Below, in pieces: positions 12,137-47,866 of a stretch of DNA of 54,094 bases; the first letter of the stretch is position 1; each line of letters starts with the position of its first letter. The notes under the pieces were generated by a model. The model did no database searches and was not told the origin of the DNA. It saw only the letters and a list, made by a program, of their open reading frames with translations. Origin of the DNA: Thermodesulfobacteriota bacterium (GTDB lineage: Bacteria > Desulfobacterota_D > UBA1144); contig JAURPH010000010.1 in assembly GCA_030835345.1 (NCBI GenBank), positions 1-54,094 on the forward strand, written 5' to 3'. Both the position numbers and the translations under genes were made by a program.

Positions 12137-12161
12137 TATGATATATTATACATATCGAATT

Positions 12162-12497
12162 ATGCATGTTGATATAAAATCACCATCTACTTTTATAACT
12201 AAGGTCTACACTACATCCATTAAAGATGGTAAAAAAAAAGATATAAAACTAAAAGTTGTATATGATGATGGAAAAATTTATTTCACACGAAGAAATAAAC
12301 AGTCTTCCTGGTATAAGAACTTATTAAAAAATGATAAAGCTGAATTTGAGCTTGGTGGTAAAATATTCTATGGAACAGCAAAAGAGATGAGTGATCAAAA
12401 TCTGATTTCTCATATTTCTCAAATAAAATATTCAAATGAAAAAAAAGATGAGCCTAGATATGGTTTTGAAATCAAAATTCAAGGAGAGAGCACATAG
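12162..12497 (+). CDS. DUF385/Ddn-like split beta-barrel protein
   Basis: The protein is 111 aa and resembles the deazaflavin-dependent nitroreductase (DUF385) or pyridoxamine-oxidase-like split-barrel fold. It shows TSIKDGKKKDIKLKVVYDDGK, then a SSWYKNLLKNDKAEFELGGK block, which parallels the WYHNLxANPxVTVxVGG pattern of that family. The cofactor (F420, FMN or heme) is undetermined. I prefer the ATG at 12162 to the one at 12138: a -10-like TATTAT lies at 12144-12149, so 12138 would not be in the transcript. Its TAG stop overlaps the ATA that begins HflX, so the two genes are coupled. Confidence 0.6.
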   Translation: MHVDIKSPSTFITKVYTTSIKDGKKKDIKLKVVYDDGKIYFTRRNKQSSWYKNLLKNDKAEFELGGKIFYGTAKEMSDQNLISHISQIKYSNEKKDEPRYGFEIKIQGEST

Positions 12498-14128
12498 CAA
12501 CTATCCAAGGTAATACTTTAGGTTTAAAGAGCAGTGAGCGAAAGGCCCTCCAAGGATTATTTAGGAATAAGTCATCAAAAGATGAAATAATTACAAAAGA
12601 GTTTTTAAGAATAATCTCTAATACTAACTTTGTTATTGAAAAAGATTTTAATATTGTCCTAAATCATAGAGGTAAAGTCGTTTTAATTTATCTGGGAGAA
12701 ACAAGTGAAATAGAGAAATACTTCAACAATGATTCTGTAAGGTCTAACTCTTATCAAAAAAGGCTCATATCAATCTCTCAAAAAAAGAAAAATTTTGAGA
12801 AAAAAGATAAAGTTGCATTTATAAATTCAAAGTTTAATAGCTTTCTAATGATCCAAAATTCAGAACATATTAAATTTCAATTATGTCATAAAGGAGATAG
12901 GAGCACTAAAAGCCTATGGAAACTCGAAGACTTCGATGACATTAATAAACTAAATAATTCTTCATTTTGGATTAGCTCTTCATCAAATAAAAAGAAGCCA
13001 ATTGGAAAACTAGTTCAAAACTCGTCTGAATCCTTATACATAGTTGGTGTATCAGATACAGATAATATAGATTTAAAAAGCTCAATGAAAGAACTAAAAG
13101 AGTTATGTATATCGCTTAATAAAAATATAGTAGGTGAAAAAACTCAATTAAGAAAAAAAATTGATCCTTCTACTTTTATCGGAAAGGGATTGCTTAATGA
13201 AATTTTATTAGAGGCTAAATTTTACAATGCTAAAAGAATTTTATTTAATAAAGAATTACAACCATATCAATCTAAAAAGATATCCATGCTAACAAATATA
13301 AATATAAGTGATAGAACTGATTTAATTCTTGAAATTTTTGAAAAAAATGCCCAATCTAAAGAAGCCCATACTCAGATAGAACTTGCAAGGTTAAAATATG
13401 AGTTACCAAGACTTGCCGGGCAAGGTCTTAACTTTTCTCAAATTTCAGGTGGAATAAGATCAAAAGGACCAGGTGAGAAAAAACTAGAACAAAGAAGAAG
13501 ATATCTAAGAAAAAGAATTAATGAGTTAGAAAAACAAATTGATAACCTGAGCAACAGAAGGCAACTTACACGATCTCAAAGAGCAAGAAATCAATTATTC
13601 TCTGCGACACTTATTGGATATACTTGTGCAGGGAAATCAACATTGTTTAACAAATTAACAAAAGCAAATGTCATTGAAAGTACAAAAGCATTCTCAACTT
13701 TAAATCCAACAACAAGGAAAACTTTTTTATCAAAAAATACTCAGATTTTACTTAGTGATACTGTTGGATTTATAAGTGATTTACCTAAAGACTTAGTATC
13801 TTCATTCAGAGCGACACTTGAAGAGATTAGCGATTCCAACTTACTTATACATATTGTTGATGCTAGCGATAAAGATTTTGAAGAAAAAATAGTTTCAGTG
13901 GAGAAAACACTAAAGGAAACAGGACTCGAAGAAAATCCTAAAATTGTTGTATTTAACAAATTGGACTTACTTAGTCCAGAAGAGCATAGTGAGCTAAAAA
14001 AAATATATCCAGACCAGTGTGTTTCATCAAAAACAGGCGATGGAATCAATAATTTGAAAAAATATATCGAACTCCAAATTGAATCAATTGGAAATTTTAG
14101 TTCATACAAAAAAACAGCTAATCTTTAA
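12494..14128 (+). CDS. hflX: ribosome-associated GTPase HflX, long form, with ATA start
   Basis: HflX binds the 50S subunit and splits stalled ribosomes. The GTPase domain shows G1 GYTCAGKST, G3 DTVGF and G4 NKLD, and the HflX domain has GKGLLNEI and GGIRSKGPGEKKLE. The first in-frame ATG is at 12848, but the frame is open for 118 more codons and these encode TIQGNTLGLKSSERKALQGL, the GNTxGLKxSQxxAL start of long deltaproteobacterial-type HflX. No ATG, GTG or TTG is available there. The only codon that fits is ATA at 12494, seven bases after a strong AAGGAG (12481-12486) and overlapping the upstream TAG. Full length is then 544 aa. The 3' end overlaps the convergent MaoC gene by 11 bases. Confidence 0.88.
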   Translation: MATIQGNTLGLKSSERKALQGLFRNKSSKDEIITKEFLRIISNTNFVIEKDFNIVLNHRGKVVLIYLGETSEIEKYFNNDSVRSNSYQKRLISISQKKKNFEKKDKVAFINSKFNSFLMIQNSEHIKFQLCHKGDRSTKSLWKLEDFDDINKLNNSSFWISSSSNKKKPIGKLVQNSSESLYIVGVSDTDNIDLKSSMKELKELCISLNKNIVGEKTQLRKKIDPSTFIGKGLLNEILLEAKFYNAKRILFNKELQPYQSKKISMLTNINISDRTDLILEIFEKNAQSKEAHTQIELARLKYELPRLAGQGLNFSQISGGIRSKGPGEKKLEQRRRYLRKRINELEKQIDNLSNRRQLTRSQRARNQLFSATLIGYTCAGKSTLFNKLTKANVIESTKAFSTLNPTTRKTFLSKNTQILLSDTVGFISDLPKDLVSSFRATLEEISDSNLLIHIVDASDKDFEEKIVSVEKTLKETGLEENPKIVVFNKLDLLSPEEHSELKKIYPDQCVSSKTGDGINNLKKYIELQIESIGNFSSYKKTANL

Positions 14129-46367: not shown

Positions 46368-47252
46368 ATGCTCAAAATAAAAGGCTGTATAACAGCATTA
46401 ATAACACCATTTACTAAAGCTGGAAATTTAGATCAAAATACTTTAAAAAAATTGATTAAAAGACAGATAGAGCTTGGTGTTCATGGGATAGTACCTTGCG
46501 GTACAACCGGAGAATCTCCAACTCTAAGTCATGATGAACATGATAAAGTAATTGAAATTGCAGTCTCAACGTCAAATGGAAGAATCCCTGTAATCGCAGG
46601 TACCGGATCAAATTCAACAAAAGAAGCCATCAGATTAACTAAAGCAGCCGAAAAAGCTGGAGCAGATGCAAGTTTACAAGTTGTTCCTTACTACAATAGA
46701 CCAAATCAAGAAGGTTTATTTAAACATTTCAAGAATATTGCAAGAGAAACTAAGCTACCAATAATCTTATATAATATCCCAGGCAGATCTTCAGTGAATC
46801 TTGAGACTTCTACAATTGCAAGGTTAGAGAAGGCCTGTAAGAATATTGTGGGCATTAAAGAAGCCTCTGGGAACATTAATAAAGTAAAACAAATAATTAA
46901 AAGCTGTTCAAAAAAATTCATTATTTTGTCTGGTGAAGACAGTTTGAATCTTCAAATACTAAAAAATGGTGGTAAAGGTTTTATCTCGGTTACATCTAAT
47001 TTGATGCCAAAGGAATGCTCTGAACTTTATGAGAATTATATTGCCAAGAATACTAAAGAAGTGAATAAAATTGATAGAAACTTAAAAAATATAAATAAGT
47101 TGCTATTTGTAGACACTAATCCAATTCCAATAAAATATGCCATGAAAAAATTAGGACTTAGTCTAGATAATATAAGGCTTCCTTTAACAAATTTAGATAA
47201 AAAAAAGCAGGAAAAAATTAATAAGGAACTAAAAAAATTAAAGCTACGATAA
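46368..47252 (+). CDS. dapA: 4-hydroxy-tetrahydrodipicolinate synthase
   Basis: This class I aldolase condenses pyruvate with aspartate semialdehyde in lysine and cell-wall synthesis. The Schiff-base Lys is K164 in VGIKEASGN, the catalytic Tyr is Y135 in LYNIPGRS, and GTTGESPTLS binds the substrate. The length, 294 aa, is standard. A -10-like TATTAT (46356-46361) ends 6 bases before the ATG, so an internal leaderless promoter is possible. Its last bases overlap the ATA that appears to begin rnhB. Confidence 0.95.
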   Translation: MLKIKGCITALITPFTKAGNLDQNTLKKLIKRQIELGVHGIVPCGTTGESPTLSHDEHDKVIEIAVSTSNGRIPVIAGTGSNSTKEAIRLTKAAEKAGADASLQVVPYYNRPNQEGLFKHFKNIARETKLPIILYNIPGRSSVNLETSTIARLEKACKNIVGIKEASGNINKVKQIIKSCSKKFIILSGEDSLNLQILKNGGKGFISVTSNLMPKECSELYENYIAKNTKEVNKIDRNLKNINKLLFVDTNPIPIKYAMKKLGLSLDNIRLPLTNLDKKKQEKINKELKKLKLR

Positions 47253-47866
47253 AGAATAGTCTTTCTGATATAGAAATAGAAATCATTAAAAAATATGGAA
47301 ATGTTGTTGGAATTGATGAAGTTGGAAGAGGTTCATTGTTCGGTCCAGTAATATCATGTTGTGTAATTGTAAATGAAAAATTTAACAAATTAGACCTTTC
47401 AAAAATAAAGGACTCTAAGAAATTATCTGAAAAATTAAGAAATAATTTTGTTAAAGAATTTATTGATGCAGGATGTGATTTTGGATTAGGGTCATCCAAT
47501 AATAAGCACATAGATAAATCTAATGTAAGCGATGCTACATTATTTTCTATGAAAGATGCAATCAATAATCTTAAAATTGAGCCTAGGGCTATTTTGGTTG
47601 ATGGTATGCAAAAAATCCCAAATATTGATTGTTACCAACTAGCAATAACAAAAGGTGATAATATATGTAAATCAATTGGAGCGGCATCTATTTTGGCAAA
47701 GTTTGTTAGAGACTTTATTATCAGAAAATATCATAGTGCTTTACCATATTACGACCTAAAAAATAACGTAGGCTATGGAACCACTATCCACATAAAGAAT
47801 ATTAATACTTATGGTAAAAGCTTTGGTCATAGAAAATCTTTCAAAATCAAATCAATTGACAGATAA
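47249..47866 (+). CDS. rnhB: ribonuclease HII, with ATA start
   Basis: It removes RNA primers and single ribonucleotides from DNA. GIDEVGRGSLFGPV holds the first two acidic residues, ILVDGM the third, and NVGYGT is the C-terminal family block. The first codon of the usual kind is TTG at 47336, but that would cut off the essential DEVGRG. The frame stays open to 47225 without ATG, GTG or TTG. ATA at 47249, overlapping the dapA stop as ATAA, gives 205 aa with the usual 20 or so residues ahead of GIDEVG. ATT at 47237, nine bases after AAGGA, is the alternative. Confidence 0.85.
   Translation: MKNSLSDIEIEIIKKYGNVVGIDEVGRGSLFGPVISCCVIVNEKFNKLDLSKIKDSKKLSEKLRNNFVKEFIDAGCDFGLGSSNNKHIDKSNVSDATLFSMKDAINNLKIEPRAILVDGMQKIPNIDCYQLAITKGDNICKSIGAASILAKFVRDFIIRKYHSALPYYDLKNNVGYGTTIHIKNINTYGKSFGHRKSFKIKSIDR

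Follow-up and report, generated by a model that had tools for sequence, protein, structure and literature searches.

Few bacterial genes with non-canonical start codons have been characterized. To our knowledge, no such start is widely kept in any bacterial gene besides infC, which begins with AUU in Escherichia coli, AUC in Streptomyces and AUA in Staphylococcus aureus. AUA is also the start of ccpN in the latter organism, where those non-canonical starts that were measured yield approximately 10 to 30% of AUG (PMC13009471). Through its repression of non-canonical starts, the initiation factor IF3 controls its own gene, infC, as well as Streptomyces sigR (PMC5472188). IF3 acts against the association of ribosomal subunits, and under stress HflX splits 70S ribosomes. 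Genes that prefer non-AUG starts have been listed by Gvozdjak and Samanta (arXiv:2008.10758). In the open-access literature that we searched, which did not cover that gene list, we found no report of an AUA, ATC, ATT or other non-AUG start of hflX. The analyses presented here indicate that hflX is a second widely conserved gene with an AUH start (AUA, AUU or AUC) after infC, which is new unless it figures in that list.

The window, i.e., the whole stretch of 54,094 nucleotides that was analyzed, comes from a 968-kb draft genome in 15 contigs that is 94% complete. It harbors a long-form hflX gene (12494-14128, plus strand) of 544 codons followed by a TAA at 14126-14128. Its product matches the TIGR03156 GTP_HflX profile (E=2.9e-113, 378 bits versus a curated cut-off of 216.75) and the Pfam models GTP-bdg_N, GTP-bdg_M and MMR_HSR1 at residues 196 to 489, and the G-domain motifs GYTCAGKSTLFN, DTVGF and NKLD are all intact. 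The profile match and the G motifs show that it is a member of the GTPase HflX family, while ribosome splitting by this particular protein is inferred, without biochemistry.

A frame scan placed the first in-frame ATG of hflX at 12848-12850, with no GTG or TTG before it. In the same frame, an ATA codon at 12494-12496 (plus strand) is found 7 nt downstream of the Shine-Dalgarno sequence AAGGAG (12481-12486, plus strand). The frame remains open for only about 27 nt above that ATA and is then closed, and the start must therefore be near 12494. The initial annotation, made from the sequence alone, had proposed that HflX starts at this ATA seven bases after AAGGAG, that 118 codons devoid of ATG, GTG or TTG are open above the first ATG, and that the conserved GNTxGLK motif lies among them. 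The spacing and the codon count were confirmed, and a start at 12848 would indeed drop GNTxGLK and some 100 further residues.

The region lost with a start at that ATG (codons 2 to 118; 12497-12847, plus strand) was compared between the window and a congener. dN was 0.030 and dS 0.884, giving a ratio of 0.034 compared with 0.056 for the remainder of the gene, and 106 of 114 residues were identical. As they are under purifying selection (dN/dS 0.03), codons 2 to 118 must be translated. The N-terminal extension as a whole is approximately 180 residues long, has no Pfam model, and aligns across the phylum. None of the solved HflX structures that we found by sequence covers it: when a relative served as the query, the matches started around its residue 190. 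It could be argued that translation starts at the internal ATG and that the upstream frame is not translated, since 12848 is the first canonical start and short-form HflX proteins lack the extension. We consider this very unlikely in view of the selection on codons 2 to 118, of their phylum-wide alignment, and of the absence, in many relatives, of any canonical codon close to the conserved N-terminus.

The start region was inspected for each full-length hflX in the window's phylum, whose 58 genomes form a single class, which yielded 46 intact genes. Codon 1 was ATA in all 46, in loci ranging from 28 to 59% G+C. It was the sole invariant codon of the start region, with an entropy of 0 bits versus 1.65 to 3.13 bits for codons 2 to 12, though several of those encode conserved residues. 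If codon 1 coded for Ile like any other, all 32 genes of sufficient length would carry ATA there with a probability of approximately 10^-11.5. This estimate uses each gene's own ATA share and is a guide rather than a P value, because the genes are kin. A single transition would convert ATA to ATG, and its absence in 46 species leads us to infer selection against AUG. In 37 of the 46 genes, ATG, GTG and TTG were all absent from the stretch running from the preceding in-frame stop to codon +15, and that stop was at most 10 codons away in 31 genes. Shine-Dalgarno matches of at least 4 nt were detected in 31 genes, with a spacing of mostly 6 to 9 nt from the GGAGG core to codon 1; the 15 genes without such a match under this strict test mostly have GGGG-type variants. 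One more gene, from a 59%-complete draft genome (G056; L031/L061), was not counted among the 46. It has the ATA, and its hflX is frameshifted just after the start.

The checks that the initial annotation had called for included those for an assembly error at the ATA and for the identity of this codon in close relatives. An ATG misread as ATA might be suspected in a draft genome of 15 contigs, but this codon is also ATA in 45 further species of the phylum, whose genomes were assembled independently, which all but excludes this explanation. Another possibility is that the real start is a nearby near-cognate codon, such as the ATC at 12503. There is a precedent for this in gyrA of the same genome, which resembled an ATA start until the conserved codon turned out to be an ATT two codons on. 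For hflX this is very unlikely: codon 4 varies (ATC, ATA, ATT, CTC, GTA, TTA), whereas codon 1 alone is invariant, and codon 4 sits 9 nt further from the Shine-Dalgarno sequence, beyond the normal spacing. When the same spacing test was moved to codon 4, it was met by no gene in the phylum and by 4 outside it. We conclude by comparison, in the absence of protein, ribosome-profiling or reporter data, that HflX translation very likely starts at the ATA at 12494, as first proposed.

In the window, the TAG stop codon of an upstream gene of 119 aa (12138-12497, plus strand) overlaps the ATA as ATAG. The product of that gene weakly matches F420H2-dependent quinone reductases/nitroreductases, with both PF04075 (E=4.9e-4) and TIGR00026 (E=1.1e-4) below cut-off. 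The parallel drawn in the initial annotation between ATAG and ATGA coupling held in part, i.e., only in the window's own family. There, 8 of 12 genomes have the overlap, and the upstream gene ends 4 to 7 nt before the ATA in the other 4. In 17 examined loci of other families, no upstream gene ended near hflX, and the ATA was nevertheless kept; it is therefore independent of the overlap. Stop-start coupling as the cause of the ATA was rejected, as the nearby upstream gene is, among the loci examined, confined to the window's family. The ATA start is probably older than the ATAG overlap, with coupling a later and local feature. The overlapping or abutting genes of this family might also suggest that ribosomes enter the extension from the upstream gene, through a frameshift or readthrough of its stop codon, rather than by initiating there. 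This is all but excluded, since no upstream gene ends nearby in the loci examined outside the family, in-frame TAA codons are present two codons above the ATA in five loci (L025, L027, L030, L052, L054), and a normally spaced Shine-Dalgarno sequence would be purposeless.

When 387 genomes were searched with a profile, 56 long-form hflX genes from other phyla had a readable N-terminus. Codon 1 was ATC in 19, ATT in 11, ATA in 10, ATG in 8, TTG in 4, GTG in 2, and unclear in 2, amounting to an AUH start in 40 of 56 genes, spread over 34 family codes, and to ATG, GTG or TTG in 14. The starts of this sample were partly placed by eye: the codon was first set at a constant distance from the GN motif, then shifted by 1 or 2 codons in about a dozen loci. 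The two unclear genes, L098 and L064, have ACG and CTA, respectively, as apparent starts. In 29 of the 40 AUH genes, the sequence up to codon +15, counted from the preceding stop or from the limit of what was examined, had no canonical start, and 35 of the 40 had a Shine-Dalgarno match of at least 4 nt at a distance of 4 to 11 nt. Comparison thus shows that hflX of the window has a conserved AUH start of the infC type, in that AUA, AUU or AUC is kept in relatives, the Shine-Dalgarno spacing is normal, and no canonical start would preserve the conserved N-terminus. Initiation with fMet and repression by IF3 are inferred. If this reading is true, gene finders limited to ATG, GTG and TTG would truncate the N-terminal domain of long-form HflX.

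A second phylum was picked because its IF3 is, in our view, cyanobacterial in appearance, and 30 of its hflX loci were inspected; 3 of the 30 were already in the first outside sample. There were 21 AUH starts without a nearby canonical start, 3 ambiguous cases with a GTG 2 to 3 codons upstream, 5 ATG starts, and 1 gene that could not be aligned. Shine-Dalgarno sequences are weak in this phylum. In these loci (L349-L378), an NNG codon followed by CCT often precedes the ATC of hflX. The NNG codon is ATG or GTG in some species, as though the start had shifted two codons upstream. Plasmid records were also searched for named organisms with an AUH hflX; only Fusobacterium was found, and its long hflX uses ATG. 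A 2.1-Mb Fusobacterium vincentii record (NZ_CP084075.1, L263), filed as a plasmid, carries hflX and is of chromosome size.

By comparison, infC of the window genome (L043; G000:C13:122547-123044, minus strand) has an ATA start, which follows GGGAGG and overlaps the stop codon of the upstream gene as ATAA. The start of infC best supported by a Shine-Dalgarno sequence was ATA, ATC or ATT in approximately 45 of 60 genomes, a majority that agrees with prior knowledge of infC starts. That the unusual start is common to many phyla and to infC goes beyond what the initial annotation had claimed. Genomes with a canonical hflX start mostly retain an AUH infC (e.g., G291, G076 and G203), and we looked for strict co-variation between the start codons of the two genes without seeing any. 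As a control, frr was sought in 30 of the same genomes and located in 21, with ATG in 20, GTG in 1 and AUH in none at the expected place. Among eight short-form hflX genes (Gallionella-type and alphaproteobacterial records), seven had an in-frame ATG near the expected start and the eighth was unreadable.

The window genome has 34 tRNAs, three of them with a CAU anticodon and none with UAU, and a special initiator tRNA for AUA was rejected on these grounds. Rough start calling on 646 genes of this genome, which allowed only ATG, TTG and GTG, gave 542, 70 and 34 starts, respectively. Free use of ATA throughout the genome was likewise rejected, on the basis of this rough calling with three codons only and of the small number of genes with coding sequence above their first canonical start. 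A filter based on the onset of codon usage was too blunt to detect unusual starts and was dropped.

The scan of the window genome for genes that code upstream of their first canonical codon returned hflX, infC, gyrA, rnhB and trmFO, plus the normal prfB frameshift. In gyrA (L264; G000:C11:37765-40221, plus strand; relatives L265-L277), an ATT or ATC near the N-terminus after a Shine-Dalgarno sequence is conserved in 14 of 14 genomes of the window's family, and other families have ATG. No well-placed canonical start is present in 13 of these genomes; in the remaining one, G003, a TTG lies two codons upstream. The apparent start of rnhB (window 47225-47866, plus strand) is the ATT at 47237, conserved as ATT AAA with AAGGA upstream in genera g1 and g4, and genus g2 has ATG. 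For trmFO (L294; G000:C11:27989-29308, minus strand), an apparent CTG start (AGGAGAGATAAACTG) is conserved in g1, g2 and one g4 genome. The streamlined family of the window thus seems likely to use near-cognate starts more broadly, in addition to an older hflX and infC pattern. Separately, a von Willebrand A domain gene, perhaps ChlD-like chelatase (G000:C11:42565-43773, minus strand), has a reading frame that extends approximately 58 codons upstream of the first ATG; no start-like codon occurs there, and ribosomes might enter it by a frameshift in the preceding gene.

We propose that AAGGAG would position the 30S subunit at the AUA of hflX, where the ordinary initiator tRNA (anticodon CAU) may read this codon with a third-base mismatch to give fMet. 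IF3 would reject AUA initiation complexes, so that HflX would be made at only part of the rate that an AUG would give. A shortage of free IF3 relative to 30S subunits would raise HflX and IF3 together. As infC has the same kind of start, the levels of IF3 and HflX, both of which keep or make the subunits separate, would be set by a single sensor, namely the ratio of free IF3 to 30S subunits. An AUA start with IF3 holding HflX down, placing hflX within the infC feedback loop, is in our opinion the likely best explanation. The start is supported by comparison, whereas the purpose is inferred, as is the control of hflX by IF3, which we nevertheless regard as probable.

It might be instead that AUA is the start but merely keeps HflX low, without the level of IF3 being a signal. 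In favor of this view, S. aureus reporters with non-AUG starts fell to approximately 10% in poor medium, the unlinked near-cognate starts of gyrA, rnhB and trmFO in the window's family suggest that low yield alone can be favored, and the hflX and infC starts lack strict co-variation. However, a weak Shine-Dalgarno sequence or GUG and UUG starts would also cut yield, and yet many phyla keep AUH in infC and hflX, two genes that are tied to subunit separation. We therefore find low yield alone unlikely and favor control by IF3. A bolder reading is that long-form hflX is the second gene, beside infC, with an AUH start kept across many phyla, and that IF3 thus regulates HflX in trans; we lean towards it, by a small margin. 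If true, it would represent a bacterial circuit connecting start-codon proofreading with ribosome splitting, in which initiation fidelity is linked to the stress rescue of ribosomes.

The ribosome-splitting factor HflX of E. coli, a short form, belongs to the same GTPase family. The solved HflX proteins, including that of E. coli, match the long form only from around residue 190, and the short-form genes examined have an in-frame ATG. Like infC, hflX is a translation gene with an AUH start after a strong Shine-Dalgarno sequence, conserved across phyla, and infC of the window genome also has ATA. Unlike IF3, HflX does not itself act as the repressor, so that IF3, if it controls hflX, would do so in trans, and hflX has ATG, GTG or TTG in about a quarter of the genes sampled outside the phylum. 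Streptomyces sigR is similarly a stress-response gene with a non-canonical start, for which IF3 control in trans has been shown (PMC5472188). However, sigR has GTC, codes for a different protein and is described in one lineage, and the link between hflX and IF3 is without experiment. The S. aureus genes ccpN (AUA) and cvfC1 (AUU) resemble hflX by their conserved starts; theirs come with an extended Shine-Dalgarno sequence, and their reduced yield has been measured (PMC13009471). Their conservation was reported within one bacterial group, whereas that of the hflX start spans phyla.
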